Assembly: GCF_009177095.1 (NCBI RefSeq)
Contig: NZ_AP021861.1
Location: 3,702,501 to 3,766,500, forward strand
DNA from: Lacipirellula parvula
GTDB lineage: Bacteria > Planctomycetota > Planctomycetia > Pirellulales > Lacipirellulaceae
Length of the DNA: 64,000 nucleotides
Reading direction: 5' to 3'
Within the stretch, counting starts at the first letter, position 1; each line of letters begins with the position of its first letter. Under the pieces are notes generated by a model. It searched no databases and was not told the origin of the DNA. It worked only from the letters and a program-made list of their open reading frames with translations. The position numbers and the translations under genes are program-made. Positions 6,162 to 44,559 of this stretch are shown piece by piece.

Positions 6162-6178
6162 CCAATTATCTTACAAAT
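6162..6178 (-). promoter_or_regulatory. Regulon operator, site G1
   Basis: Read on the minus strand: ATTTGTAAGATAATTGG, fitting the consensus WWTTGTAWKAYAATTWN except at position 16. It stands about 230 bases upstream of the LamG-like gene starting at 5932, inside the 421-base gap 5933-6353, where no gene is seen. It nearly duplicates site D in front of the GntR gene (TTGTAAGATAATT identical). Confidence 0.7.
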
Positions 6179-6183
6179 CGCTG

Positions 6184-6200
6184 TTTTGTAATATAATTAC
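6184..6200 (+). promoter_or_regulatory. Regulon operator, site G2
   Basis: TTTTGTAATATAATTAC, a second copy of the dyad 22 bases from G1 and in opposite orientation (start to start about two helical turns). The core TTGTAATATAAT is identical to site H at 30319-30335. The pairing suggests cooperative binding of two dimers at this promoter. Confidence 0.65.
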
Positions 6201-6353
6201 TCAGTCGATTTAGGTCAATGCGCCGCTTGTGTTTATTTATTCAGAAATCACCCGCACACGACCGCCTGAAACACCCTTCCTCCACTGCGCAAATTCCTCA
6301 TGGAAGTGCCCGTTTGCGATTCGCTTTCGACAAGCCAACTCGGCTAGCAGACG

Positions 6354-7277
6354 CTAGGATTTGACGCGGTAATCGAGTTCCGCCAGCATCTTGCCGATGT
6401 CCTTCCGGTAGTTCTCCTGCAACGGCAAGATCGGCGGCTGCGGGTCGCCCACCGGCGGGCCAATCATGTTGAGCACCGCCTTCATCACGCTGAACCAATG
6501 GGCGCCTTCGCCCTTGGACAGATAGCTGCTGAACTGAATCCGCATCAGCGGACCAAGCTTCTTCCAGATCGCGCGCGCTGCCGGCAGATCGCCGTCGATC
6601 GCAATCGCCGTGTAGAGCTGCTGAGCCGCACGCGGCACCATGCTCGGGATGCCCGAAATCCAACCGTGCGCCCCGTGGCACAGACCTTCGAAGGCAACTG
6701 TGTCGAGGCCGGCGTAGACGAACAGGTCGCCGCCGGTCGCCTGCAACAGTTGGCAGATGCGATCGGGCTCTGGGTTCGACATCTTCACGCCGCCAATCGC
6801 CTTCTCTTCAAACAGCTTGACGATATGATCGGTCGTGAAGTCAACGCAGGTCAGCGGTACGTTGTGATACAGCACCACCGGAATGGAAACCGCTTCGGCG
6901 ATCCGCCGATAGTGCGTCATGGCCTGCGAAGGCGTTGGCGCCATGTAGTACGGCGGCACGATCAGCAGGGAGTCGGCGCCGGCGCGCTCGGCGTGCTTCG
7001 ACAGTTCGATCGTATGTTGAGTCGAGTAAGCATGCGTCCCGGCGACGACTGGCACGCGGCCATTGTTCGCCTCGAGCGCCGCCTCAAGGACGCGCTTGCG
7101 ATCTTCCACTTCCATCACGGGAAACTCGCCCGAACTCCCCAGCGGGGAGATCGCATTCGCCCCTTCGCTGATAATCCAGTCGACGTGGGCCGGCAGTAGC
7201 GCGAGATCGAGTTCGCCGCGAGAATTGAACGGTGTGATCGTCGACGCGCAGACGCCGCGAAACAGTGGCTTGGGCAT
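6354..7277 (-). CDS. Dihydrodipicolinate synthase/N-acetylneuraminate lyase family aldolase or dehydratase
   Basis: I take the ATG at 7277 (MPKPLFRGVCAST), giving 307 residues; upstream codons in frame look non-coding. It is a class I aldolase-fold (beta/alpha)8 protein: the phosphate/carboxylate-binding GSSGEFPVM loop, a YHNVP segment with the catalytic tyrosine, and Schiff-base lysine K165 in GGVKMSNPEPD. Family members include dihydrodipicolinate synthase, KDG aldolase, 5-keto-4-deoxyglucarate dehydratase and 2-keto-3-deoxypentonate dehydratase. With a sugar-acid dehydratase upstream and a 2,5-dioxovalerate-type dehydrogenase at 46209, a sugar-acid role is far more likely than lysine synthesis. 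Operator site A lies 129 bases upstream. The precise substrate is not decided. Confidence 0.88.
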   Translation of the reverse strand: MPKPLFRGVCASTITPFNSRGELDLALLPAHVDWIISEGANAISPLGSSGEFPVMEVEDRKRVLEAALEANNGRVPVVAGTHAYSTQHTIELSKHAERAGADSLLIVPPYYMAPTPSQAMTHYRRIAEAVSIPVVLYHNVPLTCVDFTTDHIVKLFEEKAIGGVKMSNPEPDRICQLLQATGGDLFVYAGLDTVAFEGLCHGAHGWISGIPSMVPRAAQQLYTAIAIDGDLPAARAIWKKLGPLMRIQFSSYLSKGEGAHWFSVMKAVLNMIGPPVGDPQPPILPLQENYRKDIGKMLAELDYRVKS

Positions 7278-7405
7278 ATTCACGCACTCATCGTATGAGG
7301 TGATTTTTGTGGCTCGGCGGCGAAAGGCGCCGCGTGCACATGGTTCGAAAAGCAACGAGAACGATTACGTCCGAGACGAGAGACAGGGGCTTGCGACCCC
7401 TTTCT

Positions 7406-7422
7406 ATTTGTATGACAATTAT
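7406..7422 (+). promoter_or_regulatory. Regulon operator, site A
   Basis: ATTTGTATGACAATTAT, with TTGT and ACAA half-sites around ATG, matching the FadR-subfamily pattern TNGTNNNACNA. It is centred between the divergent DapA-like gene (start 7277) and the PQQ-type propeller gene (start 7544), 121-129 bases from each. It differs from site B (44543-44559) at a single base over 18. Confidence 0.8.
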
Positions 7423-7543: not shown

Positions 7544-8872
7544 ATGTTTCAATTCCTTCACTTCCGCGCGGAGCGCCTCCTCGCGATCGTCTTGTGCCTC
7601 GCGTCTGCTTCGAGCGCCGCCGAATGGCCCGAATTTCGCGGCCCGACCGGCCAGGGCGTGGCCGACCACGCCCAGCCGCCCGTCGAATGGGCGCCTGACA
7701 AAAACGTCACGTGGCGCACAGCAATTCCTGGCAGCGGTTGGTCGTCGCCAATCGTTGCGGGAGGCCGCATTTATGTAACGACTGCCGTTCAAGAGCAGGG
7801 GGGCGGCAGCGGGCCCGACGTCAATAACAACGAACCGGTCGGCAGCAACTCGACTGCCAGCGCGTTGAGCCTGCGACTGCTCGCGCTCGATGCGCAATCG
7901 GGGCAGATCGTGTGGGACCGCGAGATCTTCCACTACGACGCCGGCAGTTACCCGTCAGGGCATGCGAAGAACACCTTCGCGAGCCCCACCCCGCTCGCCG
8001 TGGGCGATCGCATCTACGCCCATTTCGGGCCGCTGGGAACGGCTGCCGTCGACCTTAACGGCGAGATCATTTGGCAGAACAAAACCATTTCGTACGACGC
8101 CCGCCACGGCGGGGCAGGCTCGCCAGTCGTCGTTGGCGATACGCTCGTCTTCAATTGCGATGGAGTGGAAAATCCCTTCATCGTCGGGCTCGACAAGACG
8201 ACGGGCAAGGAACTCTGGCGGACGCCGCGTCAACCGATGGAGCCCGAGCGTTTTGCCTTTTCGACGCCGCTAATGGTTCCTTCATCAAGCACCGCCAGCG
8301 GCGTCCAGCTTGTCAGCCCAGCGAGCCATATGATTGGCAGCTACGATCCAGCCGATGGCCGCGAATTGTGGCACGTCTTTTTTGATCGGCGTTGGTCGAC
8401 GGCGTCGCGTCCAGTTTACGCCGAGGGGATGGTACTCGCCTGCAACGGGGGCGAAGCGCCGCCGGAGCTGCTCGCCATCCGCCCAGACGGCGAGGGAAAC
8501 GTCTCGGAAACGCACGTCGTCTGGCGGCACGACAATTTCGCGCCGCTGACGTCGTCGGTCGTTGTCGCGGACGGCCACGTTTACATGGTTAGCGACGCAG
8601 GAATCGCGGCCTGCACCGATGCGACGACGGGCAAAGTCGTGTGGAAAAAACGGCTTGGCGGTAACTTTTCTGCGTCGCCGATTTATGCCGACGGACGCAT
8701 CTACTTTCCGAGCGACAACGGCACATGCTACGTGATCGCCGCCAAGCCACGGTATGAACTGCTGGCGAAGAATAGCCTCGAAGAGCCGACCTTGGCCTCG
8801 TTCGCCGTCACCGGCGACGCGCTCATCATTCGCACGAGTGACGCCGTCTACCGCATTGAGGAAACTCCTTAG
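7544..8872 (+). CDS. PQQ-like beta-propeller secreted protein
   Basis: The 442-residue protein begins with a signal peptide (RLLAIVLCLASASSAAEWPEFRGPTGQG) and is built of repeated propeller blades with typical PQQ-repeat phrases such as GSGWSSPIVAGGRIYVTT, LDAQSGQIVWDRE and DATTGKVVWKKRLGGNFSASPIYADGRIYF. The WPEFRGPTGQG start is usual for the large planctomycete family of PQQ-like or BamB-like propellers, of unknown function. No dehydrogenase active-site signature is evident, so enzymatic activity is doubtful. It is followed after 62 bases by the mutarotase-like gene and is probably controlled through site A. Confidence 0.85.
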   Translation: MFQFLHFRAERLLAIVLCLASASSAAEWPEFRGPTGQGVADHAQPPVEWAPDKNVTWRTAIPGSGWSSPIVAGGRIYVTTAVQEQGGGSGPDVNNNEPVGSNSTASALSLRLLALDAQSGQIVWDREIFHYDAGSYPSGHAKNTFASPTPLAVGDRIYAHFGPLGTAAVDLNGEIIWQNKTISYDARHGGAGSPVVVGDTLVFNCDGVENPFIVGLDKTTGKELWRTPRQPMEPERFAFSTPLMVPSSSTASGVQLVSPASHMIGSYDPADGRELWHVFFDRRWSTASRPVYAEGMVLACNGGEAPPELLAIRPDGEGNVSETHVVWRHDNFAPLTSSVVVADGHVYMVSDAGIAACTDATTGKVVWKKRLGGNFSASPIYADGRIYFPSDNGTCYVIAAKPRYELLAKNSLEEPTLASFAVTGDALIIRTSDAVYRIEETP

Positions 8873-8934
8873 TCCGTGTTAGCGTGCACCTGAATTTTGT
8901 TCTTTGACTTTCCCCGTCGTAAGGTTCGCCTGAT

Positions 8935-10044
8935 ATGCCCGAAACGGTTTCACGAGATCTTCGCACCTTGGCCGCTGCCCCTCCCAAGCAGCAGTTGATC
9001 GAATCGCTGGAACGCGCGAGCCGCCCTCCGCTCACGCTCACGGGGCCGTCCGGCGAGACGGTGCTCGTTCTGCCGCATGGGGGAAGAGTACTCGGACTTT
9101 ACTCCAGCGCCAGCTCAAAGAACTTCTTGTGGACGAGCGCCGCGATCTCCAGTCCTGAACTCGCGCGCGAACACTTTGGCTCCGATCGCTGGTGCAACAG
9201 TGGCGGCGACCGCACCTGGTTGGGCCCTGAAATCGATTTCTTCTACCCGCATTATCCCGACACAAGCCGGCAGTATTTTCAGCCGCGGCAGCTCGATCCG
9301 GGCCGTTGGGTCGCGTCGCGCACGCCGACGCGAATGATCGTGGAGAACTCGCTGGCGGTTCATTCGTTCCGACGCGGTTGGACGCAGTCGATTCGCATCC
9401 GCAAAACGGTCAGCATGATCTCCAACCCGCTCGCCGACTGCGAAGTTGGTTTGACGGGCGAACTGGAGTTCGCGGGATACCAACTGCATACGTCGCTCGA
9501 ATTGTTGGACCCGCTGGCCGACAACGTTGAAATCGGAATTTGGAATTTGCTGCAGCTTCCCGGCGGCGGCGAGATGGTCGTCCCGACTTACGGGCCGACG
9601 ACTCCGGTCGTCTACTTCGGCGACATCCCGCAGGGCGACGTGCGAACGGAACCCCGCTGCGTCCGCTACCGGATGTCGGCCCCCAACGAACAGAAGATCG
9701 GCGTCGACGCGATCGCCACCACCGGCCGCGCCGGTTACGTGCGCGAGGATGACGAAGATCGCTCAGTCGCGTCGCTCGTCGTGCGCAACTTCCATAACAA
9801 CCTGATCGGCCCATACGTCGATGTGCCGCTACACACCCCTGAGCGCGGCGGCCACGCCTTCCAGGCGTGCAATATCGACGCGGACTACCTCGGGCACTTC
9901 GCGGAGCTCGAATACCACGCCCCGGCGATCGGCGGCCCCACGGGGCAATCTCGCAGCGACGACGTGAGCCAAGTCTTCGCTTACCGCGGACCGCGGGAGA
10001 TCATTGCGCAAGCTGCGCAAACGCTACTTGGCGTGACGATCTAG
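8935..10044 (+). CDS. Aldose-1-epimerase-like (galactose mutarotase-fold) hypothetical protein
   Basis: The 369-residue cytosolic-looking protein lacks a signal peptide. Motifs GPSGETVLVLPHGGRVLGLYSS near the N-terminus and NSGGDRTWLGPEIDFFYPH around residue 90 look like the galactose-mutarotase superfamily and the DUF6786-type proteins found near sugar genes in planctomycetes and Bacteroidota. No confident catalytic pair was assigned. It follows the PQQ-like gene and ends the rightward unit; a palindromic repeat cluster comes next. A role in handling sugars or sugar acids fits the context but remains inference. Confidence 0.7.
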   Translation: MPETVSRDLRTLAAAPPKQQLIESLERASRPPLTLTGPSGETVLVLPHGGRVLGLYSSASSKNFLWTSAAISSPELAREHFGSDRWCNSGGDRTWLGPEIDFFYPHYPDTSRQYFQPRQLDPGRWVASRTPTRMIVENSLAVHSFRRGWTQSIRIRKTVSMISNPLADCEVGLTGELEFAGYQLHTSLELLDPLADNVEIGIWNLLQLPGGGEMVVPTYGPTTPVVYFGDIPQGDVRTEPRCVRYRMSAPNEQKIGVDAIATTGRAGYVREDDEDRSVASLVVRNFHNNLIGPYVDVPLHTPERGGHAFQACNIDADYLGHFAELEYHAPAIGGPTGQSRSDDVSQVFAYRGPREIIAQAAQTLLGVTI

Positions 10045-10315: not shown

Positions 10316-11809
10316 TTAGCCGAGCAGCCACGCCAGCGGATTCTCAATGACGTCGCACAGCGATGTAAGGAATGCCGCCGCCGGCGCCCCGTCGACCACG
10401 CGGTGATCGAACGTCAGGCTGAGGTTGACGACGTCGGCGACCACGAGTTGCCGCTGCTTCGCGACCGGCTGTTCGGAGATCCGGCCGATGCCGAGGATCG
10501 CCGTTTGCGGCGGATTGAGAATCGGCGTGAACGCCTCCACTCGATAGCCGCCGAGGCTGCTCACCGTGAAGGCCCCGCCGCGCATCTGGTCGGCGGCGAG
10601 CCGTTGCGTGCGAGCAAGTTCAATGAGATTGGCGAAGCTGGCGGATAGCTCTCGCAGCGACAACCGCGGAACGTCGCGGATCACCGGGGTCATCAGGCCA
10701 TTAGGCGTCGCCACCGCCACAGCGATGTTCACGCCCTCGGCTTTCACGAGTCGCTCGTTGACCCATTGATCCAACAGCGCCGGATGCTTTTCGAGCGCGG
10801 CCGCGCACAGCTTCACGAACAGTTCCGTGTAGCTCGGCGGATTGACTCCCCGCTCGACGCTCGTCCGTTTGCATTCGTCGCGGAAGCGAACGAGTTCGGA
10901 AGCATCGGCGCGAGCCGTCAACGTCACCGGCGCCGTCTCGTGCGAGGCGGCCATCATCCGCTGCGCGATCACACGGCGGATCTGAGTGATCGGCTCGCCG
11001 ATCGCAGCGCCGCCAGCCGACGCGGCCGAAACCTTCGCCGCTGGCTTGCTCGAAGCATTGGCGGCAATCGCGCGCACGTCTTGTTCCCGAATGCGGCCGT
11101 TGCGGCCAGAACCGACGGCGTCAGCAGGATCCACATTAAGTTCGCTAGCGACGCGCTTCGCTCGCGGCGTCACGGCGACATCGCCGCTAACCACTGCTCT
11201 CGCTACCGGCGTCGCCGCTGGCTGCGCCGACGGCTGAGCAGCCAATCGCATTAGTTCAGCAGCCGATAGCGGCGACGGATCGTCGCGATCGCACTTCTGC
11301 AGATCGATTCCCAACTCTCTCGCCAGCCGCCGCACAGAGGGGCTAGCAACCGGGGCGGTAGAGGCGCTCGTCTTCTCCGGAACAGCCGCCTGCGGAGGCT
11401 GGGCTGCCGGAGCCGCAGCGGCGTGCGAACCATTGCCGTTTGGAGCAGGGGCGCCGTTGGTTTTCTTCTCGGCGGCTTTCGCGCCATTGCCGTTCGTCGC
11501 AGCGGGAGCCGCCTGAGCCTGTTGAGCTGCCGGGGCCTTGGGCGCGGCCGCCTTCCCGCCGCGCGGCTCAAGGTGCGCCAGCACTTGGCCAACCTTGACG
11601 ATATCGCCGGATTGCGGACCGTCGGGGCCAATTCGCAGGACGCCGGCGTCGAATGACTCGACCACTTGCGTCGCCTTGTCGCCCTCCAACTCGTAGAGGC
11701 CGTCCCCCTCGCGCACCATCTCGCCTTCTTCCTTCAGCCAACGGCAGAAGGAGCCCTCTTCCATCGACCAGCCAAGGCGCGGAACGGTGACTTCAATCGA
11801 ACTAGCCAT
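10316..11809 (-). CDS. 2-oxoacid dehydrogenase E2 component (dihydrolipoamide acyltransferase)
   Basis: Starting at ATG 11809 (MASSIEVTVP) gives 497 residues. An N-terminal lipoyl domain carries lipoyl-lysine K45 in LEGDKATQ. A long Ala/Pro-rich linker leads to two peripheral-subunit-binding-like segments: the first (SPSVRRLARELGIDL) has lost the usual GTGPxGRI, the second (TPRAKRVASELNVDPADAVGSGRNGRIREQDV) is canonical. The C-terminal catalytic domain ends with FDHRVVDG, giving catalytic H469 and D473. It lies about 100 bases after the fused E1 gene and forms with it a pyruvate, acetoin or branched 2-oxoacid dehydrogenase complex. No E3 gene is visible, so E3 must be shared from elsewhere. 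In this operon it would convert the pyruvate made from sugar acids to acetyl-CoA. Confidence 0.92.
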   Translation of the reverse strand: MASSIEVTVPRLGWSMEEGSFCRWLKEEGEMVREGDGLYELEGDKATQVVESFDAGVLRIGPDGPQSGDIVKVGQVLAHLEPRGGKAAAPKAPAAQQAQAAPAATNGNGAKAAEKKTNGAPAPNGNGSHAAAAPAAQPPQAAVPEKTSASTAPVASPSVRRLARELGIDLQKCDRDDPSPLSAAELMRLAAQPSAQPAATPVARAVVSGDVAVTPRAKRVASELNVDPADAVGSGRNGRIREQDVRAIAANASSKPAAKVSAASAGGAAIGEPITQIRRVIAQRMMAASHETAPVTLTARADASELVRFRDECKRTSVERGVNPPSYTELFVKLCAAALEKHPALLDQWVNERLVKAEGVNIAVAVATPNGLMTPVIRDVPRLSLRELSASFANLIELARTQRLAADQMRGGAFTVSSLGGYRVEAFTPILNPPQTAILGIGRISEQPVAKQRQLVVADVVNLSLTFDHRVVDGAPAAAFLTSLCDVIENPLAWLLG

Positions 11810-11910
11810 CTTACGGTACGCTTTCACTCAGAGAAGAGACGCGACGCCGTGAGGCTTGCGCCCCTCGAACAATCATTACAACTCGGTAGACGGCGGATGT
11901 TTGCTCAGCT

Positions 11911-13923
11911 TCACTCCGCCATCAACTCTTCAATTGCTGCAACGATGTCGTCCACCTGCGGAATATTATTGTTCTCAAGCACCGGCGAGTACGGAGTCGG
12001 CGCTTGTTTGCCGTTCAGACGCTTGATCGGTGCGTCGAGGTCGTCGAAGCCGCGGCCGGACACCTGAGCGGCAATCTCGGCGCCAAGGCCGTACGGCCCA
12101 AACGACTCGTCAACGACAAGCAGCCGGCCAGTCTTCGCCACGGAAGCGAGAATCGAATCGATGTCGAGCGGTGCGACCGTGCGCGGATCGATCAGTTCAA
12201 CCGAAACTCCCTTCGCGGCCAACTGCTCCGCCGCCGCCGCAGCCTTGTGCACCATCTGAGCCAGCGAGACGACGGTTACGTCCGTCCCTTCGCGAACGAT
12301 CGCGGCTTGGCCGAACGGGATGCGATATTCTTGCTCGGGAACGGCGCACTTAATCGTCAACAACTCGCGATGTTCGAGGAACAGCACCGGGTCGTCGCCA
12401 GCCAACGCCTCCGCGAACAACCCCTTGGCGTCGTACGCATTCGACGGCACAACGACCTTCAGGCCGGGAAAGTGCCCGTAGGTTGTATAGTAGCTGCCGG
12501 AATGGTGCGTCGCGGCCGAGTGACCGGCGCCGATGCAGCCGCGCATAACGACCGGCATCTTGATGCGGCCGTTCGACATGTATTGCACTTTGGCAATCTG
12601 ATTGATGATCTCGCCGGCGGCATCGAGGATGAAATCCGCGAACATAAAGTCGATCACCGGGCGGCTACCCGACATCGCCGCGCCGCAAGCAAGGCCGATA
12701 AATCCGCGTTCGGAAATCGGCGTGTCGCAAATCCGCTCGCCGCCGAAGAGCTTATAGAGCCCGTCGGTCGTCTTAAAGCTGCCGCCGCGCTCGCCGACGC
12801 CTTCGCCCATGACGAACATGAGATCATGACGCTGCAACGCGAAACGAAGCGCATCGACCGTCGCCTCGACGAACGACTTTTCACTCGTCGCGTCGGCAGG
12901 GGAGGGGAGGGGCAGCAAAGACTCGCGCGGCTCCGCAAACACGTGCGTCGCGGAGTCCTCAGCCTCAGGATAGTCGGCCTCGATCGCATTGGCGTGCGCT
13001 TGCGCGACTTCGTCGGCGATCTCGTCCTCGATTTCATCGAGCCACGCGCCGGTCACGCCCTCTTCGTCGCCAAATGCCTCGAGAATCGCCTCGCGGCAAC
13101 GCGCGATCGGACATTTCGACTTCCAATCGTCGACCTCTTCGCGCGTCCGGTAGGTAAAGTCGGTCATCCCCTCGGAGTGAGCACGCGTGCGATACGTTTT
13201 GCATTCGATCAGCGTCGGGCCCTCGCCGCGGCGGGCGCGCGTGACCGCGATTTGCGCGGCGCTGTAAACCGCGAGCAAATCGTTGCCGTCGACCTCGATC
13301 GCCGGAATGCCATACGCAGCGCCGCGATTCGCGACATGCGGGTTGCCGGCCGAGTAGCTGAAGGGGACTTCCGTGGCGTACTGGTTGTTCTCGCAGACGA
13401 ACAACACCGGCAACTTGTAGATGCTGGCGAGATTGAGGCCTTCGTGAAACGCTCCGTTGTTGACGGCGCCGTCGCCGAAGAACGCGGCGGAGACCGAGCT
13501 CTCCTTGGTCAGCTTGAAGGTATACCCTGCGCCGGCCGCCTGCAGGATGCACGGAGCGACGATGCCGCTCGTCCCCATCATGCCGATCTCTGGCGAAAAC
13601 AAATGCATGCTCCCGCCACGGCCGCGCGAACAGCCGGTCACGCGGCCGTACAGTTCGGCAATGAGATCTTCCGCCGGCATCCCCTTGGCCATCGCATGGC
13701 CATGGCCGCGATGAGTGCTGAACACCATGTCGCGGGAACTAAAGTGCGCGAGCACGCCCACCGCGACCGCCTCTTGCCCCACATAGGTGTGGCAGGCGCC
13801 GTGAACGTCGCCGCGTTGATGCGATTTAGCCAACTGCAATTCGGTCTTGCGAATCAGCAGCATGCGTCGATAGAGGTCGATCCAAGTCGCTTTATCGACG
13901 TTCGGTGCGGTAACCGTTGCCAT
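11911..13923 (-). CDS. Fused 2-oxoacid dehydrogenase E1 (alpha plus beta subunits)
   Basis: The ATG at 13923 (MATVTAPNVDKATW) is preferred; the in-frame extension to 14022 is arginine-rich and non-conserved in look. The 670-residue protein is a natural fusion. Residues 1 to about 330 are E1-alpha, with the thiamine-diphosphate motif GDGAVNNGAFHEGLNLASIYKLPVLFVCENN and the HRGHGHAMAKG loop. From about residue 345 it is E1-beta, with FVMGEGVGERGGSF, FADFILDAAGEIINQ and the C-terminal transketolase-type domain (LAAKGVSVELIDPRTVAPLD). Such E1 proteins decarboxylate pyruvate, acetoin or branched 2-oxoacids and pass the acyl group to E2, encoded next. Position after FAH and Ldh2 genes suggests that pyruvate is the substrate here. 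Confidence 0.92.
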   Translation of the reverse strand: MATVTAPNVDKATWIDLYRRMLLIRKTELQLAKSHQRGDVHGACHTYVGQEAVAVGVLAHFSSRDMVFSTHRGHGHAMAKGMPAEDLIAELYGRVTGCSRGRGGSMHLFSPEIGMMGTSGIVAPCILQAAGAGYTFKLTKESSVSAAFFGDGAVNNGAFHEGLNLASIYKLPVLFVCENNQYATEVPFSYSAGNPHVANRGAAYGIPAIEVDGNDLLAVYSAAQIAVTRARRGEGPTLIECKTYRTRAHSEGMTDFTYRTREEVDDWKSKCPIARCREAILEAFGDEEGVTGAWLDEIEDEIADEVAQAHANAIEADYPEAEDSATHVFAEPRESLLPLPSPADATSEKSFVEATVDALRFALQRHDLMFVMGEGVGERGGSFKTTDGLYKLFGGERICDTPISERGFIGLACGAAMSGSRPVIDFMFADFILDAAGEIINQIAKVQYMSNGRIKMPVVMRGCIGAGHSAATHHSGSYYTTYGHFPGLKVVVPSNAYDAKGLFAEALAGDDPVLFLEHRELLTIKCAVPEQEYRIPFGQAAIVREGTDVTVVSLAQMVHKAAAAAEQLAAKGVSVELIDPRTVAPLDIDSILASVAKTGRLLVVDESFGPYGLGAEIAAQVSGRGFDDLDAPIKRLNGKQAPTPYSPVLENNNIPQVDDIVAAIEELMAE

Positions 13924-14035
13924 GGAGTCTTCTCGCAATCCATGACGCAAATGATGCGTCGTTGTTCCGTGTGTCCAGACTGTTCGCTCGCTGAGTCGTC
14001 GGCGTTGGCGAAGACTCAGCAAGTCTCAAACTCAA

Positions 14036-14845: not shown

Positions 14846-14914
14846 ATTTGATAAGCGCCGCCAACGAAGCGTTAACTGCTGGCCGACGTGAAAGAAATGT
14901 GAATGAAAAGCAGA

Positions 14915-15982: not shown

Positions 15983-16044
15983 AAGAATTCGACTTGCTTA
16001 TGCGGCGGCGCAGGAAATCGCCGCCTAGGGGAGAAAAGCGGAGG

Positions 16045-17103: not shown

Positions 17104-17120
17104 AATTGTAAGATAATTAT
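17104..17120 (+). promoter_or_regulatory. Regulon operator, site D (between GntR gene and catabolic operon)
   Basis: AATTGTAAGATAATTAT lies in the divergent gap, 64 bases upstream of the hydroxyacid dehydrogenase start and about 110 upstream of the GntR start. The location implies that the regulator controls both its own gene and the adjacent operon, as FadR-type repressors commonly do. Confidence 0.75.
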
Positions 17121-19792: not shown

Positions 19793-19846
19793 TGTCAGTG
19801 GGTCCGTTACTGCGTCGTCCGACGCGAATCCTAAGGAAAGAATCAA

Positions 19847-35652: not shown

Positions 35653-35726
35653 TGAACCTGATGAGCGGGCGAAAGTGGTTTGTGACGAGGAGTGATCAAT
35701 CTTCCGACAAGCATTATCAACCGCCG

Positions 35727-35743
35727 CCAATTATAATACAATA
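35727..35743 (-). promoter_or_regulatory. Regulon operator, site E
   Basis: Read on the minus strand: TATTGTATTATAATTGG. It lies between divergent KDPG aldolase (start 35652) and the P-loop kinase (start 35798), 75 and 55 bases away respectively. Confidence 0.65.
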
Positions 35744-36376: not shown

Positions 36377-36428
36377 ACAATTTTTCTTTTCACCGATCAC
36401 TCGTCACTGTTCTTGTTTGGGAGAAACA

Positions 36429-38513
36429 ATGAGTTACTCGCGAAGTGAACTTTTACAGGCGCTTTGTCGCCGAGCGTTACTGCTGCTCGCCGGCGCGCTG
36501 CTCGCGTGCCAAGCAGCGACCGCTCTAGCCGTCGCACCGACGGCGGAAGAACTCGCCGCCGAATCGTCCTGGGTGAAGGAACAACTCCTGCAAACGACGA
36601 AGGCCCCGCCGTTCTCGTTCAAGTACGGCTCCGACAAGCCCGCGGCGTTCTACAAGTCTTGGGACCGCCAAGCCAGCGAAAAGAAGCTCGACGACAATCG
36701 CACGGAGCACGTCATTACTTGGACGCACAAGGCAAGTGAACTTCAAGTCCGCTGCGTCGCCGTAACCTACAGCGATTTCCCCGTCGTCGAATGGACGGTC
36801 TACTTCAAGAACCTCGGCAAGAAGGCGACGCCGCTGTTGCAGGGCATTCAGGGCCTCGACCTGACGCTGAAGGAATCCAGCAAGTACGTCCTGCACGGCA
36901 TCAAGGGCGACTTCTGCACGGCCGATAGCTTCGAACCATTCCGTCTGGAACTCACCGAAGACTTCTCCAAGAAGTTCGCGCCGTACCCTTACTCCGGCAA
37001 ATCGTCGGATGGGCCCGATGGCTGGCCGTATCACAACCTGCAAACCGAAGATGGCGGGATGATCATCGCCGTCGGCTGGCCCGGCCAGTGGGAAAGCAGC
37101 TTCACGCGGCTGGGTAAAAAAGGGCTGCGAGTCACCGCCGGCCAACAGCTGACGCACCTCGTCTTGGAACCAGGCGAAGAGATTCGCACGCCCCTCATCG
37201 CGCTTTTGTTCTACCAGGGCGACGACGTCGTCCGCGCCCAGAACTTGTGGCGCCGTTGGTACTTGGCCCACGTCATCCCGCAGGTCGATGGCAAGCCGCA
37301 GGGACCGCTCAAGCAGATTCAGGTCGGCGGCAACGATTCGAGCTATGCCCAAAGCTTCCTCGATGCGGGCGTGCAGATCGATCTCTGCTGGCGCGACGCC
37401 GGCGGCGCGAACACCTGGTACCCCAGCGATAAGGGCCCCTACGCCCCCAAGGAAGGCGAGCCGAACAACCAATGGCTCAACACCGGCACGTGGGACATTG
37501 ATCGCACCAAGTATCCCGATGGCTTCAAGCCGTTTAGCGACTGGTGCCACGAGCACGGCATCCAGTTCCTGCTCTGGTTCGAACCGGAGCGCGTCGGCTC
37601 GCGCGAAACCTTCCTCGGGCAACATCCCGAATGGCTGTTGCCGGCCACCGACATGACCGTCGGCGACATCTTCAACCTCGGCAACCCCGAAGCCTTGGCT
37701 TGGCTCATCGATCACATCGATGGGATGATCAAGTCCGAAGGGCTCGATTGGTACCGTGAAGACATGAACGGCAACGGCCCGCTCACCGCATGGCGCGCCG
37801 CCGACGCTGAGAACCGGCAGGGGATCACCGAGAACTTCTACGTTCAAGGTCACCTGAAGTTCTGGGACGAGATCGTGCGTCGCAACCCCGGGCTCTCGAT
37901 CGATTCCTGCGCCTCGGGCGGCCGCCGCAACGACCTGGAAACGATGCGTCGTTCGGTCCCACTTCTCCGCAGCGACTTCCAGTTCCCTGGCTCGCAGCAA
38001 AACGTGTTCGACGGCAACCAATGCCAAACCTACGGCCTGTCGAGCTGGTTGCCGTTCCAAGGGACCGGCTGCTACCTGTACGAGCCGTACGAACTGCGCA
38101 GCTTCTACCTGCCGCTGTTCGGCATGGGCGGGCTCGCCCCGGAAAACCACGAAGCGCAAGTGACGGCGTACAAGGAATGCGAGCAAGTCGCCCCGTCGAT
38201 GCTGCTCGGCGACTACTACCCGCTAACGCCGTACAGCCTCGCCCCCGACGTCTGGATCGGCTGGCAGTTCAATCGTCCGGAAGTCGGACAAGGGGCCGTC
38301 CAGGTCTTCCGCCGCCAAGATGCAAAAGAGTCGTCCGTTCGCCTCAAGCTGCAGGGCCTCGACCCCGCGGCCGAATATGAGGTGACCGATCTCGACAAAG
38401 GAACGAGCGTTCACTCCGGCAAGTCGCTCATGGACGAAGGCCTGCAAGTGGAACTCGAACCGCGCAGTGCGGCGATCTTCCTCTACAAGCCGAAGGCAGA
38501 GCATGGGGGTTAG
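36429..38513 (+). CDS. GH36-like alpha-galactosidase family glycoside hydrolase (copy 3)
   Basis: ATG 36429 follows a GGGAGA ribosome-binding site and gives 694 residues with a signal segment (LCRRALLLLAGALLACQAATALA). Barrel motifs are CWRDAGGANTWYPSDKGPY, LLWFEPERVGSRETFLGQ, D445 in WYREDMNGNG (nucleophile candidate), IDSCASGGRRNDLETMRR and D516 in LRSDFQFPGS (acid/base candidate). It resembles copy 2 throughout its length but lacks the disordered C-terminal tail. It follows the P-loop kinase gene and is probably driven from site E. Three secreted paralogues in 12 kb suggest different linkages or chain positions of one polymer. Confidence 0.88.
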   Translation: MSYSRSELLQALCRRALLLLAGALLACQAATALAVAPTAEELAAESSWVKEQLLQTTKAPPFSFKYGSDKPAAFYKSWDRQASEKKLDDNRTEHVITWTHKASELQVRCVAVTYSDFPVVEWTVYFKNLGKKATPLLQGIQGLDLTLKESSKYVLHGIKGDFCTADSFEPFRLELTEDFSKKFAPYPYSGKSSDGPDGWPYHNLQTEDGGMIIAVGWPGQWESSFTRLGKKGLRVTAGQQLTHLVLEPGEEIRTPLIALLFYQGDDVVRAQNLWRRWYLAHVIPQVDGKPQGPLKQIQVGGNDSSYAQSFLDAGVQIDLCWRDAGGANTWYPSDKGPYAPKEGEPNNQWLNTGTWDIDRTKYPDGFKPFSDWCHEHGIQFLLWFEPERVGSRETFLGQHPEWLLPATDMTVGDIFNLGNPEALAWLIDHIDGMIKSEGLDWYREDMNGNGPLTAWRAADAENRQGITENFYVQGHLKFWDEIVRRNPGLSIDSCASGGRRNDLETMRRSVPLLRSDFQFPGSQQNVFDGNQCQTYGLSSWLPFQGTGCYLYEPYELRSFYLPLFGMGGLAPENHEAQVTAYKECEQVAPSMLLGDYYPLTPYSLAPDVWIGWQFNRPEVGQGAVQVFRRQDAKESSVRLKLQGLDPAAEYEVTDLDKGTSVHSGKSLMDEGLQVELEPRSAAIFLYKPKAEHGG

Positions 38514-38516
38514 TCG

Positions 38517-38685: not shown

Positions 38686-39987
38686 TCAGACTTCGTCTAG
38701 CGGCGTGGAGGCGTCTCCAAACTTCTCCGGACGCCCGCCCATCTTGTCCATCATCGACAAGTACAGGCGGCACATCTGCCGTTGCTCGGCGCCCCGGTAG
38801 TCAAGCACGCGGCCCGTGTTGATCTTGCCGCCGCCCCGGCCCACGAGAATGACGGGAAGCTCGTCGTTGTTGTGGTTGCCCGTCATCATGCTCGAACAGA
38901 ACATGAGCATCGAGTTGTCGAGCGCCGTCCGTTCGCCTTCCTGAATGCCGTCGAGCTTGCCCGCGATGTAGGCGACCTGCTCCAGGAAGAACTGATTCAC
39001 CTTGAGCCAATCGGGCGTGTCGGTGTGCGACAGCAAATGGTGGATCATGTAGTCGACGCTCAAGTGCGGGAACCGCAGCGACGAGTGATCGTTGTTTAGC
39101 TTGAGCGTACAAACCCGCGTCGTGTCGGTCTGGAAGCCGAGCACCATGATGTCGCACATCAACCGCACGTGATCGGCGAGGTTCTGCGGAATTCCCTCCG
39201 CCGGCCGCGGGATGTTGGGCGTCTGCAACGTGGGACGCCAGCCCTGCAGTTCGCCCTGTTTGCCGGCCCGCTCGATCCGCATTTCGACGTCGCGCACCGA
39301 GTCAAAATACTCGTCGAGCTTCTGCCGGTCGCTGGAGCTAACGACCCGTCGCACGTCGTGCGCATCTTCCATCACCGCGTCGAGAACGCTGACGTCGCCG
39401 CGGTTAACCTCGTCCTTGAATAGCCGGTCGAACGCAAGCGAAGGATACAGTTCCAACGGCGTCGGCGTGGTCGGCGACGACCACGAAATGTGCGAGCTGT
39501 AGAGCATCGAGTAGTTCTGATGCACCGAGGGATTCGGCGGCTCGCAGCCGAGCACCAAGCTTGAAACCTTCGTCGACCGCCCATAGGTTTGGGCGAGGTA
39601 TTGATCGACGCTAATTCCCGACCGCACCTCGCCGCCCGAAGCGAGCGGCGCCCCCGACAGCAGGTTGCCGGTCTGCGAGCTGTGGATGTTGCCCTTGCGA
39701 GCTTCTTCGTTGTACAGCCCCTGGATGAACAGCAGCTTCTCGCGATGAGCGTGCAGCGGCGCGAGCACGCCGCCGAGCTCCATCTCCGCGCCGGCCCCCT
39801 TGGCCCACCACTCCTTCGAGTGAAAGCCGTTGCCGGAGAACATCACGCCCAGCCGCACGGGAGGCTCGGCCGCCGCGGCGCCAGCGCTTTCCTGCGCCCA
39901 CGCAGAGACCGATTCCAGCCACGGCAACGCCATGCTCACGCCGATGCCGCGCAACATCGTGCGGCGAGAAATTGGTCGACTACGCAT
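38686..39987 (-). CDS. DUF1552 domain protein with twin-arginine signal
   Basis: The 433-residue protein starts with a Tat-type leader (RPISRRTMLRGIGVSMALPWLESVSA). The rest is a typical DUF1552 protein: RLGVMFSGNGFHSKEWWAKG, SSLVLGCEPPNPSVHQNYSMLYSSHISWSSPTTPTPLELYPSLAFDRLF, and DNSMLMFCSSMMTGNHNNDELPVILVGRGGG near the C-terminus. DUF1552 proteins occur almost always beside DUF1592/DUF1585 cytochrome-like proteins in planctomycetes, as here (gene at 40042-44241), and are exported. Their function is not known; the family has similarity to sulfatase-like DUF1501 proteins. A redox partnership is inferred only. Confidence 0.93.
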   Translation of the reverse strand: MRSRPISRRTMLRGIGVSMALPWLESVSAWAQESAGAAAAEPPVRLGVMFSGNGFHSKEWWAKGAGAEMELGGVLAPLHAHREKLLFIQGLYNEEARKGNIHSSQTGNLLSGAPLASGGEVRSGISVDQYLAQTYGRSTKVSSLVLGCEPPNPSVHQNYSMLYSSHISWSSPTTPTPLELYPSLAFDRLFKDEVNRGDVSVLDAVMEDAHDVRRVVSSSDRQKLDEYFDSVRDVEMRIERAGKQGELQGWRPTLQTPNIPRPAEGIPQNLADHVRLMCDIMVLGFQTDTTRVCTLKLNNDHSSLRFPHLSVDYMIHHLLSHTDTPDWLKVNQFFLEQVAYIAGKLDGIQEGERTALDNSMLMFCSSMMTGNHNNDELPVILVGRGGGKINTGRVLDYRGAEQRQMCRLYLSMMDKMGGRPEKFGDASTPLDEV

Positions 39988-40041
39988 TGTCCGCCTCCGT
40001 TTTTTATTGGAGTTTCAATGTGTTGTTAGAACGTCGTGGGC

Positions 40042-43000
40042 TCAAAAAGTCGTCGGCGCCGTCACGTTCGCGCCGCTTCTGATCTCGCGAAATTGCTTAC
40101 TGTCGACGATCAGTTCGATCGCCACGCCGACTTTGAAATCGTTCGCCTTCAATTCTTCCGTCATCCGCGTCAGCAGCGGATCGTCCGACAGCTGAACCTC
40201 GCGCCCGAGAGCGTAGCCGAGCAACTTGCGGCAGAAATGCCGCACGAACTCGTCGCGCCGATTAGTGCTCAAATAGGCCCGCAAGCTGTCGGCTCCGTTC
40301 ACCGGCGTCCCGTCGGGCAGCGTCGCCGCGGCGTCGATCGGATGCCCGGCGGCATCCGCGTCGCGACGCCGACCGATCGCATCGTACTGCTCGAGCGCAA
40401 ACCCAAACGGATCGATCCGGGCGTGGCAATTCATGCAGGCCGGATCGCGGGCGTGCCGCTCCGTGAGCTGCCGTTCAGTCATCCCTTCAGGGATCTCATC
40501 GTCGAGCGGCGGGACGTCCTTGGGGGGCGGCGGCAAGGCCTCGTCCAGCACGACGCTCGTCAGCCAGTTGCCCCGCAGCACCGGGCTCGTTCGCGATGCG
40601 CCCGATTGCTTGGCAAGCACAGCGCCCAGCCCCAGCACGCCGCCGCGGCCATAGGCCCGCACGCCGTCGACGCGCCGCCAAGCCTCGCCTTCGACGCCCG
40701 GAATGCCGTAATGCGCCGCCAGTTCGGCGTTGAGGAACGTATGATCGCTGTCGAGCAATTCCACCATCGACCGATTGTTCTGGAATAGGTCGGTGAAGAG
40801 CTGAATCGCTTCCTCATACATCGGCTCCCGCACCTCAGCAAAGGTCGGGAAGAGCCGCTCGTTTTTCTCGTCCAACTTGTCGAACCCGTGAATGTTCAGC
40901 CACTGGCAGCCGAACTCCGTCGCCAGCTGCCTTACACGGGCGTCCGCGAGCATGCGTCGCGTTTGCCCCAGCAGTTCCTCGCGCTGGCTCAAGCTGTTCG
41001 TGCGAGCCGCCTCGTGCAATTGGGCGTCGGGCGGGCCTGACCACAGGAAGTAGCTTAGCCGGTTGGCCAACTGCGCGTCGCTGATCGTCCCTGATAGACC
41101 CTCCGCCGGCGCCGCTTCGACGCGGTAGAGGAAATTCGGCGAGATCAATACTCGCGCGATCAGCAGCCGCAGCGCCTCTTCGTGAGCCAGCTCCTCGGCC
41201 CGCAGATCGGCATACAGCGTCCGCAATTGCGCGACCTCGGCCTCGCTCAACGGCCGCCGGTACGCCGACGCCGCCCAGTCGACGATAGCGTCGAGTTGCA
41301 ACGGCTCGCCTCCCCGTTGCTGCGCATGAAAGTCCTCGATCCGCTGATTCAACGTCCCGCGCATCGACTCAATATGCTTCACGCGCTCCGGTTCCACTTG
41401 GGTGGCGTACTCCAGCATTTGCTCGAAGGCGATCATTGTTTCTTCTGGTTCGTGGCTGACAAACGCCAGTTCCACCCACAAGCGATTCAGCTCTTCCTTC
41501 TCCGCGTCGTTCAGCATCAGCCGCACGAGCGGCGAGTCCTCCCGGTAGTGCAGGACCATCGAGATCACTTCGTCGACGGGGACGACTTGCAAATAACAAA
41601 GCGCCACCGGGAATAGCTCGCGGAACTCCCCGCACATCGCCTCCAGCTCTTGCCGCGATTGGCTCTCGGGAAGCGTGACGAACGGAATCTCCGGAAACGC
41701 CGCGGTGTCCGGCGGGCGCGTCGTCGTCGCCTGGAACTGCACCGTTGAGTTCGCACTCGCCTCGGCCAACTCCGCATCGACGGCAAACTCCGAACCCGCG
41801 GCCACCGTCTTCGGCAGCTGAATCTCGATGATTTGCCCCGTCTTGCCGCCGAGGCTTTCCTGCCCGATCTGGCCGCCTTCGGGCGTCTTCCCGAACAACG
41901 ACACATCAACGCCGAGCGCCGCATCGTAGGCCGCGGCTTGCCCGCCCGGCGTCGCGGCGGCCTGCGACAGCAGCCCCGTCAGCAACGACTCTTCCTCGTT
42001 GTTCAGCACGGCCCGCAGCCGCTCGTTGGGGCTATCGCCAGCCGCTGGCGCCGAAGCTGAGAGCAGTTGCTGCAGTTCCGCCGCCAGCTGCTTTCGCTCC
42101 GCCGCATCGGCGGAAAGTTCCCAGCGGGCTAGCGCCGAATCGGCGGGAATCGGCGACAACGATCGATCGGCGGTCGACTCAAACGCAAATTGCCACACGT
42201 TCGCGTTACCGTAGAGATCCGCCCGCGGGTTCTCCTTCAGCACGTCGGCCTGAATCTCGTCGGTGAGATTCCAACGCTGCTCGCCGCTTTCGATGGTGAA
42301 ATGGACCTCGGTCGAATCGCACGTGAACTCTCCGTCGCGCGGTCCCACGGCCAGCACGATCGCGTCCCCCTTCCGCAGCCGCAAACCAGCTGGGTAGCTC
42401 AAATCGGCAAGCTGGTCTCCGTTGGAAATCCCGGAACTGAGAATCTGCTTCGTCTTGCCGCGGCGAAGCTCCAGCGTCCAGTCGATGCCGTTGCCGCAGC
42501 CGGGGTGGGTGTCTTGCACCGACGCCGAAACCTTCGCCTCGCCGTCGACTGGGCTTCGCCAAACGACAAGCACGCGCTTCGTCGGCGCGGGATGCACGAC
42601 GACGCTGTGCGGCGGATAGGTCGCCGGCGTGTGGGCCGTTTCATCAGACGAGTTCGCCAACACCGAAACGCCGTCGGGGGTCACCCAGCCTTTGACGAAG
42701 CCATACGTGCTGATCATCTCAATCCGCGTCGGAATCACTTCGCCCAAGTAAGGCGTTGCACCGGGTGTTTCGCCCAGGAACTGCCGCCAAGCAACGAGCG
42801 ACACCGGCGAGATGCCATGCTTGCCGGCAACCTCCGCGACCGCGGCCGCATCCTCCGTCCCACCAAGCTCATCGACCGCCTCGAGGCACGCCCCCGTTTG
42901 CGAGAAGATCGACTCCCGCTCGCGGCGATACAACTCGTCCATCCGCCACGCATCCCGCAGCAAAATCTCCGGCCGGCCGGCGCGCACGAGCCGCGGCCGC

Positions 43001-44241
43001 CGCCACACGACCGATGCCGGCTTGCCGTCGGCGCTCGTCGCCGCCAGGTAAATTTTGCGGTCCTCGGCAGTCGCTTCGGCGCCGAGCGGCGTCCGCAGTT
43101 CATGCCGGCCAATAATCGGCGTCACCGGCTCTTGCCACATCGTCGGGGCGTTCGTTTGACCGATGCGGCCAATCGGATTGAACTTCCACAGCGCTCGCTG
43201 CCAGGCCCGCACCCGGTCGGCCACCCGCTGCGCGTCGCCCGCGGCCGCCGCGTTCCAGTGCTGCCGCACGTCGGTGAGGATGACGTTCTGCTCGTCCGCC
43301 GGTGCGTTCAGTTCCGTCCACAAGGCTTGCAAATACTTCGCGTTAAGCTGGTTAGCCGCCGCCACTTCCTCCAGCGTCTTCGCTCCCGATCGCAACGCGT
43401 CGCGTTCGGCCAGCGTTGCGGCAAAGTACCGCTCCAACGGCAAGATCCCCGCCCGCGTCTTATGGACCGCCTGCGGGCTGAAGGTGACGCCGCTCAAGTC
43501 TTCGTCGGCAAAGCGCTGATAAAATTCGCGAATCTTGCGAATGTACTCGTCGGTGTGGTCGAGGCTCGATTCGCCCGGTGAGAATCGCATCCCGGTCGGC
43601 GTGAAGACCGCGTGATTGGCAATCCCTTTGGCGGCATCGTAATACTTGCTCGCCAGCGCCGGCGACATGCCGAGCGCGTTGCCGACGTTCATAAAACCCT
43701 CGCCGGCGGCCCCGTCCGGCGGAAACTCTCGCACCGGATCGAGCGACGCGACTCCCGTAATCGCCCGCACCGTGTTCGCGTATTCAACATTGTTGAGCCG
43801 CCGCACGACGACTGGGCCCGGGTCGCCCGCATTGCTTTCGGCGCTCTTGGCGAGGAACCGCTCGATCGTTTGAATCAACGCCTTCCGCTCTTCGACCGTC
43901 GGCTGCTCGGCCTCGGGCGGCGGCATCAGCCCGCTCCGCAGGGCCTCCAACGGCTTCACCCACGCCGTCGGTTCGCCCACGATCCCCGCAGGCGTCGCCA
44001 GCGTCGTGAAATCGATGCCCGCTTCCGCCCCCTCGCCGACGTGGCAGTCGTAGCAGTAGGTTTCGAGCACATGCTGAATCCCCTCGCCGGCAACCGCCTC
44101 CGCCGGCGCGGTCTGCGGAGCCGTTTCCTCGGCGCACGCCACCCGCTCGCCGCGCATTCCCGCAAACGCCGCGAGGCACAGCGCAACTACCAGCCAGGGT
44201 TGGCGACTCAATAAAATGATTCTCGGAGCGGATCGTGTCAC
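40042..44241 (-). CDS. Large exported DUF1587/1592/1588/1585 protein with cytochrome-like CxxCH
   Basis: A GTG at 44241 opens 1,399 residues, long for this family. A signal segment (WLVVALCLAAFAGMRG) is followed by a PSCyt1-type haem motif C63-x2-C66-H67 (YCYDCHVGEGAEAG), then a DUF1587 segment (RLNNVEYANTVRAITGV). After a long central region of several hundred residues, including a beta-rich part (GNGIDWTLELRRGKTKQ), come DUF1595 (AYRRPLSEAEVAQLRTLYADL), DUF1592 (LSYFLWSGPPDAQLHEAA), DUF1588 (GASRTSPVLRGNWLTSVVLDEALPPPP, MNCHARIDPFGFALEQYD) and DUF1585 (HFCRKLLGYALGREV). A second CxxC-H-like pattern, CMNCHA, is visible near residue 1265. It is paired with DUF1552 and presumably acts in the periplasm. 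Function unknown. Confidence 0.92.
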   Translation of the reverse strand: MTRSAPRIILLSRQPWLVVALCLAAFAGMRGERVACAEETAPQTAPAEAVAGEGIQHVLETYCYDCHVGEGAEAGIDFTTLATPAGIVGEPTAWVKPLEALRSGLMPPPEAEQPTVEERKALIQTIERFLAKSAESNAGDPGPVVVRRLNNVEYANTVRAITGVASLDPVREFPPDGAAGEGFMNVGNALGMSPALASKYYDAAKGIANHAVFTPTGMRFSPGESSLDHTDEYIRKIREFYQRFADEDLSGVTFSPQAVHKTRAGILPLERYFAATLAERDALRSGAKTLEEVAAANQLNAKYLQALWTELNAPADEQNVILTDVRQHWNAAAAGDAQRVADRVRAWQRALWKFNPIGRIGQTNAPTMWQEPVTPIIGRHELRTPLGAEATAEDRKIYLAATSADGKPASVVWRRPRLVRAGRPEILLRDAWRMDELYRRERESIFSQTGACLEAVDELGGTEDAAAVAEVAGKHGISPVSLVAWRQFLGETPGATPYLGEVIPTRIEMISTYGFVKGWVTPDGVSVLANSSDETAHTPATYPPHSVVVHPAPTKRVLVVWRSPVDGEAKVSASVQDTHPGCGNGIDWTLELRRGKTKQILSSGISNGDQLADLSYPAGLRLRKGDAIVLAVGPRDGEFTCDSTEVHFTIESGEQRWNLTDEIQADVLKENPRADLYGNANVWQFAFESTADRSLSPIPADSALARWELSADAAERKQLAAELQQLLSASAPAAGDSPNERLRAVLNNEEESLLTGLLSQAAATPGGQAAAYDAALGVDVSLFGKTPEGGQIGQESLGGKTGQIIEIQLPKTVAAGSEFAVDAELAEASANSTVQFQATTTRPPDTAAFPEIPFVTLPESQSRQELEAMCGEFRELFPVALCYLQVVPVDEVISMVLHYREDSPLVRLMLNDAEKEELNRLWVELAFVSHEPEETMIAFEQMLEYATQVEPERVKHIESMRGTLNQRIEDFHAQQRGGEPLQLDAIVDWAASAYRRPLSEAEVAQLRTLYADLRAEELAHEEALRLLIARVLISPNFLYRVEAAPAEGLSGTISDAQLANRLSYFLWSGPPDAQLHEAARTNSLSQREELLGQTRRMLADARVRQLATEFGCQWLNIHGFDKLDEKNERLFPTFAEVREPMYEEAIQLFTDLFQNNRSMVELLDSDHTFLNAELAAHYGIPGVEGEAWRRVDGVRAYGRGGVLGLGAVLAKQSGASRTSPVLRGNWLTSVVLDEALPPPPKDVPPLDDEIPEGMTERQLTERHARDPACMNCHARIDPFGFALEQYDAIGRRRDADAAGHPIDAAATLPDGTPVNGADSLRAYLSTNRRDEFVRHFCRKLLGYALGREVQLSDDPLLTRMTEELKANDFKVGVAIELIVDSKQFREIRSGANVTAPTTF

Positions 44242-44542
44242 TGAAGGTCTCCGTAAGCGCTGCGTCGAACCTGTTCCGCGGTGAGGCCGTTCTCGAATCT
44301 GCTCAATGCCGTGTTGAAAAGCCCCGCAGGCGACCCGCGGGCGATGGCATCGGCTTCTTTATACTGCAGTACTCCGCGGGGGGGACAGCGCGCGGGAACG
44401 ACGCAAGGCTGCGGTCGTTGTCTCCCGTTGCTGAAATCGACGCTGCTCGGTGAGTTCGAGCCGTACTAGCCGTACTGAAAGGAGGGGTGGGAAAAGCAGG
44501 AATGATCGAGGCGAGTAAAAACAGGCTATCCGCGCCCGTACA

Positions 44543-44559
44543 TTTGTATGATAATTATG
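44543..44559 (+). promoter_or_regulatory. Regulon operator, site B
   Basis: ATTTGTATGATAATTAT, one mismatch to site A over the shared 18 bases. It lies 110 bases upstream of the PqaA-like start (44670) and 302 upstream of the divergent DUF1592 gene. The 428-base gap 44242-44669 holds no other feature I recognise. Its position argues that the reading frame upstream of 44670 is not coding. Confidence 0.75.

Follow-up and report, generated by a model that had tools for sequence, protein, structure and literature searches.

In the planctomycete Lacipirellula parvula, a short palindrome recurs between genes for glycosidases and sugar-acid enzymes, which raises the question of what protein reads it, how far its reach extends through the genome and which metabolism it governs. 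The stretch of DNA analysed here (the window) is 64,000 nucleotides long and corresponds to positions 3702501-3766500 of the single 6,922,258-base contig of this 6.92-Mb genome; positions are given in window numbering unless marked as genome positions. An earlier note on this DNA had described nine copies of the palindrome and proposed the FCD-type GntR protein encoded at 17229 as their regulator. It is now highly probable that the nine sites are operators of this GntR/FadR-type (FCD) protein (17229..17954, + strand, GTG start), which would regulate its own gene as part of a FadR-type regulon, with binding predicted from the sequence. The assignment is well supported because the operator in the regulator's own promoter is kept in most relatives down to about 45% identity, because the sites form conserved islands in their promoter regions, and because the operator changes form together with the clade of the regulator.

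All nine copies are present at the places described, and only the register of the last shifts, from 44543 to 44542. Searching the window for WWTTGTAWKAYAATTW with at most two mismatches gave 14 strand-hits, against a mean of 0.05 and a maximum of 2 in 100 dinucleotide shuffles, and chance is excluded by these shuffles, the control proposed in the earlier note, together with the reversed-pattern control given below. Five sites match exactly (6184, 7406, 17104, 30194 and 44542), three with one mismatch (6163, 30320 and 35728) and one with two (23546), and the 15-bp palindromes themselves start at 6164, 6184, 7406, 17104, 23547, 30195, 30321, 35729 and 44542. The description of seven intergenic regions, six of them divergent, agrees with the open reading frames and domains, and the pattern scan likewise found no copy in the 47-64 kb part of the window.

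The whole-genome scan that had been recommended gave 25 + 25 strand matches to the same pattern at up to two mismatches, compared with 2 + 3 for the reversed pattern. The 25 genome rows with no or one mismatch all map to 12 places, and the 17 strong sites share AATTGTAWKAYAATT. A sequence-only model of these 17 sites was run on the genome to an E-value of 10, scoring 150 of 250 first-look candidates. Its 21 matches are without exception strong sites or their complements, and the weak site at 23.5 kb was not recovered. The operator set comprises 17 strong sites in 12 places and this weak site in a thirteenth. Nine operators are inside the window, four are just to its left in two places (genome positions 3693110, 3693216, 3693236 and 3698349), and five are in four remote places (1637707/1637722, 2769149, 3168489 and 4502475). 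With its left end 9 kb outside the window, the cluster spans 3693.1-3747.1 kb in nine places, so that the extent of 40 kb first given for the regulon becomes 54 kb plus the four remote places.

Several operators occur as pairs with starts 19-21 bp apart, a spacing of two helical turns: 6164/6184 in the window, 10216/10236 at locus L031, 17816/17835 at L186, 19002/19022 at L189 and 5506/5527 at L192. The pair at L032 (6708/6723) is spaced by 15 bp. The window pair (6164..6178, - strand, matrix score 22.2; 6184..6198, + strand, score 21.2; starts 20 bp apart) sits between two minus-strand genes and is also found in the genomes G001 and G002. A further palindrome at 5020-5034 (score 18.4) lies inside a coding region, with no score of at least 15 in the gene that corresponds to it in G001 or G002, and was taken as chance because it is intragenic and not found in these two nearest relatives. 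A TATAAT string overlaps the predicted autoregulatory operator (17104..17118, + strand) in the window, at its 3' edge, and in G001 and G002, and 10 of the 17 strong sites carry a T where the palindrome would want a C, which gives TATAAT- or GATAAT-like strings, while the other seven lack that T. In eight of these ten the T is oriented along the gene served, the exceptions being 6184 and 2769149.

The regulator itself combines a GntR winged helix (PF00392, E 2.9e-16, 59.3 bits against a cut-off of 27) with an FCD domain (PF07729, E 1e-15, 58.7 bits against a cut-off of 24.3), and its GTG start at 17229 is supported because GTG starts align in G001 and G002. None of the 23 listed NCBIfam families of named regulators (NanR, LldR, PdhR and others) matched above cut-off, the best being the NanR-type NF003011 with 83 against 260 bits. 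Residues H148, H190 and H212 of the FCD domain are invariant in an alignment of eight orthologs, and the metal-binding His triad of the domain appears to be kept, with a spacing, judged by alignment only, of 42/22 residues compared with 40/22 in TM0439 and 44/22 in Ps5454 (PMC7674646). FadR-type proteins bind palindromes of the form TKGT-N3-ACMA, and an Arg at position 28 of the helix-turn-helix, one after the position of FadR Glu-34 in Table 1 of that study, favours G or C and avoids A or T at the second base of TKGT (PMC4494728). The assignment of the palindrome to the FadR-subfamily pattern stands, since the operator matches this consensus with its 3-nt gap (PMC4494728). In the alignment the regulator has Gly where PdhR has Arg, at the residue after the conserved Glu, and a TTGT operator agrees with the regulator because Gly replaces this Arg. 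Of the four genes for FCD-type GntR proteins that the genome search turned up, the window gene alone carries an operator; for the other three, no operator match lies within 18 kb.

The comparison with related genomes, also suggested beforehand, covered 59 genomes searched for regulator orthologs and for a tighter operator pattern (at most one mismatch). Regulator matches with 41-88% identity were found in G001, G002, G016, G013, G036, G042, G047 (two copies) and G053. An operator of the L. parvula form (own-type) lies upstream of gntR in G001 (88%), G002 (87%), G016 (64%) and G013 (45%), of which the first three could be aligned, and the gntR promoter of G036 has a weak own-type site (ATTGGTATGACAATA, score 13.6). 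G042, G053 and one G047 copy instead carry the sister-type operator described below, and the other G047 copy has neither. G003, of the same genus as L. parvula (94% complete, 2 contigs), yielded neither the regulator nor operators. The operator in the regulator's own promoter is in this way kept in most orthologs examined, in line with the proposed role of the gene at 17229. In promoter-by-promoter alignments, six regions were in register and showed the sites as conserved islands, with identities of 83-96% at sites and 28-43% in the flanks: 43/45 vs 249/723 for SDR/Nramp, 41/45 vs 231/538 for gntR, 13/15 vs 51/160 for 7406, 25/30 vs 182/485 for 6164, 41/45 vs 185/655 for TauD and 14/15 vs 67/167 for KDPG aldolase. 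The P450/GH36 region (13/15 vs 44/229) was left out of this count because its alignment is out of register, and the sites at 30195 and 44542 lay outside the comparison. The weak operator at 23547..23561 (AATTATATGATGATT, - strand, score 17.4) is probably functional because the same 15-mer occurs in G001 and G002 and a stronger form in G016.

A scan of named genomes widened the comparison to 80 loci, of which 53 orthologs with 40-66% identity were scored (L106-L155, L157, L158 and L161). L156, L159, L160, L162 and the remainder up to L185 stayed uncounted, L108 and L110 are near-copies, and some loci overlap with the first set (L106 is the G016 locus, L120 and L146 belong to G047, and L140 to G042). 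The wing of the DNA-binding domain divides them into 12 PRRG-type ((A/S)P(R/K)RGL) and 40 GVG-type (GVGL or PGRGL) orthologs, with L111 unclassified (best site AATCATCTGATAATA at -91, score 12.0). With a matrix trained on the L. parvula genome only, an own-type operator was found in 10 of the 12 PRRG-type orthologs, eight scoring at least 18 (seven within 300 bp, and L124 with 20.1 at -393) and two being weak (L116 with 13.8, and L118 with 14.1 against a shuffle maximum of 11.0). All 40 GVG-type orthologs have a GATTGTCWGATAATC-like site (at least 12 of 15 letters within 400 bp), which lies within 300 bp in 39 of them and as a perfect copy at -354 in the fortieth, L149. A GVG matrix trained on 20 of these loci, with seed strings drawn from the same loci and 20 shuffles per locus, gave scores of at least 15 in 19 of the other 20.

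This sister-type operator has a single orientation in all 40 loci and lies about 13 bases downstream of a TTGAC-like (-35) element. All 40 have a T at the position facing a G in 88%; we infer that one of its half-sites doubles as part of the -10 box. The L. parvula genome has no GATTGTCWGATAATC-type operator at up to one mismatch, and two mismatches gave 8 strand-hits compared with 2 for the control. At up to one mismatch the sister operator lies at the gntR promoter in G042, G047 and G053, with one extra place in G042. Single matches elsewhere mean little because G040, which has no close ortholog, carries it in four places. On the regulator tree the operator type switches once, with the weak sites of L116 and L046 taken as own-type and L118, L124, L135 and L146 outside the count of changes; the tree left out L127, L133, L147, L156, L157, L158 and L162, and 20 of its 52 inner branches were drawn open. 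PSD homologs occur in the gntR flanks at 22 of 56 loci and DUF1552 homologs at 18 of 56, and in L. parvula these genes stand 20-26 kb away from gntR and follow a separate operator (44542). GH36 genes flank gntR at 4 of the 12 PRRG-type loci and at none of the 44 others (flanks of at most 10 kb, many contigs being shorter). A tentative scenario, to which we give slightly less than an even chance, is that the regulator, which in the sister clade looks like a local autorepressor with about one operator at its own divergent promoter, gained further targets in this lineage, that spread of the operator to units with every GH36 gene and the oxidative pathway produced the multi-promoter regulator seen here, and that operator and wing changed together in the sister clade, where one operator half merged with the -10 box.

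In the proposed mechanism, the target of a regulator dimer would be AATTGTA-W-KAYAATT, placed between the -35 and -10 elements or on top of them, so that RNA polymerase is blocked, and operators about 20 bp (two helical turns) apart would place two dimers on the same face of the DNA. A sugar acid or hydroxy acid at the FCD metal site would release the protein, and its release would switch on GH36-type glycosidases, sugar transporters and the oxidative pathway. The regulator would also repress its own gene, as DgoR does. DgoR, the D-galactonate repressor of Escherichia coli, is likewise an FCD-type GntR protein of sugar-acid genes, released by D-galactonate through a metal, and an autorepressor acting through two close inverted repeats over its promoter, the arrangement proposed here (PMC7674646, PMC12288454). 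However, its metal ligands are D146, H150 and H195 rather than the common three-His set of the present regulator (PMC7674646), and it controls one operon rather than 13 places. Similarity to DgoR is remote, since its chain 7c7e matches at E 5.5e-7 and ranks sixth in the PDB list, after other GntR proteins, and by this comparison the regulator does not appear to be its ortholog. A text search of the literature for TTGTATGACAA led to the motif of another E. coli protein, YieP. YieP is a GntR/FadR-type protein. Its motif from ChIP-exo (chromatin immunoprecipitation with exonuclease), atTTGTaTGAcaAAT, is close to the operator here (ATTTGTATGACAATT at 7406) when the motifs alone are compared, and it too has many scattered sites, 33 in E. 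coli (PMC7642389). It differs in being tied to 3-hydroxypropionate tolerance and a putative transporter, yohJK, and not to a GH36/sugar-acid pathway (PMC7642389).

Several observations weigh against an autoregulated sugar-acid regulon under this protein. G005, of the same genus (82% complete, 830 contigs), has seven operator matches (those at L192 and L193 adjoin GH36, DHDPS, KDPG aldolase and TauD genes), and the regulator was not found in it; this is probably an assembly gap. Tight-pattern matches occur in G040, G054 and G026 (5, 4 and 3) alongside no close ortholog, and for two of the 12 PRRG-type orthologs, L135 and L146, the 1 kb upstream contains no recognisable site. G013 has six GH36 matches and one operator at up to one mismatch, and GH36 contigs lacking an operator were found in G001 (two), G016 (one) and G005 (one). 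The change of operator is not replicated covariation, because it is a single event on the tree. Enzyme names are mostly at family level, and it is not obvious what the PEP-CTERM gene at L034 would do in the pathway. Some of this would fit real operators read by a different regulator, with gntR merely one of its targets: the operators of G005 with no detectable ortholog, the two orthologs with no site, and YieP, a different protein with a near-identical motif. However, many planctomycete genomes retain the operator in front of gntR, its form follows the gntR clade, the remaining three FCD-GntR genes have no operator nearby, and Gly in place of the PdhR Arg fits TTGT (PMC4494728), all of which makes this alternative quite improbable.

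That some units are activated from the same sites, by an activator or dual regulator, is an unlikely variant. Those operators that separate divergent genes might act in either direction, two pairs of sites are 106 and 126 bp apart (3693110/3693216 and 30195/30321), and YieP is reported both to activate and to repress its targets (PMC7642389), but the single orientation of the sister-clade operator just downstream of a TTGAC-like -35 element in 40 of 40 loci, the TATAAT overlapping the operator in the window, G001 and G002, and autorepression by DgoR (PMC12288454) all argue for repression. The notion that an AT-rich -10 sequence merely mimics a repeated operator draws on the 10 strong sites with TATAAT- or GATAAT-like strings and has a vanishingly small probability, given the seven strong sites that lack the T and the reversed-pattern control in the genome (5 against 50). 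The tighter pattern points the same way, with 21 matches in L. parvula and none for its reversed form, which has 5 in all 59 genomes together; G001, G002 and G016 have five matches each, G013 one and G036 none, 42 of the 59 genomes have zero, and 51 of the 58 other genomes have two or fewer.

The sugar-acid theme ascribed to the genes served stands. The operator at 7406..7420 (+ strand, kept in G001) separates a gene for a DHDPS-family enzyme (6354..7355, -) from those for a PQQ-repeat protein and a DUF6786 protein (7544..10044, +), identified, like the units below, by domain search. Opposite gntR across the autoregulatory operator is a unit (10316..17040, -) which by Pfam encodes a D-2-hydroxyacid dehydrogenase, Ldh_2, an FAA hydrolase, a fused PDH-type E1 and E2, and whose gene order is unchanged in G001, G002 and G016. 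The weak operator at 23547 lies between genes for an SDR, a cytochrome-c/HEAT protein and an MFS sugar transporter (18092..23336, -) and genes for an Nramp-like transporter, a PfkB KDG-kinase-like protein and the GH36-like protein a (23779..28717, +). Cytochrome P450 (28861..30096, -) and the GH36-like protein b (30368..32722, +, longest open reading frame) are served by a near-perfect palindrome at 30195..30209 (no strand assigned, found by sequence match) and a second operator at 30321..30335 (-), which has a counterpart upstream of GH36 in G002, though the alignment left the two out of register. The P450 might be a 6-O-methyl-galactose demethylase, a speculative idea; hundreds of P450s were among the matches listed. 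The operator at 35729..35743 (-; kept in G002, with a counterpart in G005) serves KDPG/KHG aldolase (34978..35730, -, longest open reading frame; PF01081 E 7e-46, TIGR01182 above cut-off), whose true start is probably inside this frame because the Pfam match begins at residue 42, and a P-loop (gluconokinase-like) kinase with the GH36-like protein c (35798..38513, +). The last operator in the window (44542..44556, +, by sequence match) separates genes for a DUF1552 (HXXSHH) and a PSD2-5/PSCyt3 protein (38686..44241, -), homologs of which occur in gntR flanks at many loci, from those for a PhoPQ-related protein (longest open reading frame) and aldehyde dehydrogenase (44487..47723, +). The true start of the PhoPQ-related gene is probably later because the longest frame would contain the operator, and a matrix scan found a site scoring 18.3 upstream of aldehyde dehydrogenase in G002.

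Operators left of the window serve a GH36 gene, a GlpX-adenylate-kinase fusion and a TauD/SDR/SMP-30 unit, and the remote ones serve GH36 / RmlD-like genes, Ldh_2/GH36, a galactonate-dehydratase-like enzyme and a PEP-CTERM protein. All six GH36 (PF02065) genes found in the genome search lie in operator-headed units, as judged from strand and short gaps, the inclusion of GH36a relying on the weak 23547 site. In GH36a, RQD and RSD fall opposite KWD and ASD in the alignment with the alpha-galactosidase 2xn0, and RQD or RED together with RSD is present in all six proteins; the two aligned Asp motifs we take to be the catalytic nucleophile and acid/base. The substrate may differ from a plain alpha-galactoside because the six proteins have Arg-Gln or Arg-Glu in place of the Lys-Trp preceding the nucleophile. 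By Pfam, all five De Ley-Doudoroff enzyme families (SDR sugar dehydrogenase, SMP-30 lactonase, MR_MLE aldonate dehydratase, PfkB KDG/KDGal kinase and KDPG aldolase) are found in operator-headed units. In the NCBIfam scan, which did not include the lactonase, a cut-off is exceeded by the aldolase (TIGR01182), by one SDR (NF005559) and, outside these five families, by the Nramp-like protein, the MFS transporter and the E1 beta part, while the dehydratase and kinase fall below. The pathway probably starts with GH36 cleavage and continues along an oxidative, De Ley-Doudoroff-like route. The hydroxyacid dehydrogenase, FAA hydrolase and PDH-type complex may form a second branch, and the best guess for the substrate is a galactose-type sugar.

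Other genes in or near these units deserve mention. The Nramp-family-like transporter (23779-25512; NF037982, E 1.9e-42) has homologs in the gntR flanks at 12 of 56 loci and may carry a cargo other than metal. At L031:10313-12079 (genome 3693313-3695079), three operators precede a gene that joins a GlpX-type fructose-bisphosphatase to an adenylate-kinase-like domain. Two PEP-CTERM-type exported proteins have operators (L034:5963-6502, and window 4925-5932, - strand, downstream of the operator pair and with weak NCBIfam PEP-CTERM matches), with no evident role in the pathway. An MR_MLE-superfamily enzyme (81..1352, -, by domain search), first gene of a leftward ABC-transporter unit, has no operator just upstream, and no matrix score of at least 12 occurs before 5020. 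DUF1559 pseudopilin-like genes (PF07596 with N_methyl) are found on both sides of the sites in the window, at 2139-3230 and 47885-48814.

Related regulons have been described before. The FadR regulons of Suvorova et al. 2015 share the TKGT-N3-ACMA consensus, divergons with the transcription factor gene and double sites; the regulator taxonomy table of that study includes no Planctomycetota, and 'planctomyc' occurs 0 times in its main text (PMC4494728). The carrageenan regulon of Zobellia is, like the present one, dispersed and includes glycosidases, a sugar dehydrogenase, a cycloisomerase, KDGal kinase and KDPGal aldolase (PMC5698469). It differs in its AraC-type regulator and GH127/GH129-like enzymes, 'gh36' being absent from the main text, and the same paper reports carrageenan-related loci in Planctomycetes, with GNTR-like regulators in some species of a comparison figure (PMC5698469). 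No planctomycete FadR-type sugar regulon was found in searches of the open-licence literature, in which the one recurring paper deals with ectoine and a MocR-type regulator (PMC5924519). No novelty is claimed for the operator sequence itself, since it is nearly the YieP motif (PMC7642389). The kind of system is known, and what appears to be new is this group of regulators in the Planctomycetota together with its regulon and its two forms of operator.

The operator, with a different form in each of two clades, can be traced through many planctomycete genomes, so that target genes become predictable. The regulon ties GH36-type enzymes, an Nramp-like transporter, DUF1552/PSD proteins and DUF6786 to one pathway, and it offers a testable case in which control over many sugar-degrading genes may have grown out of local repression.

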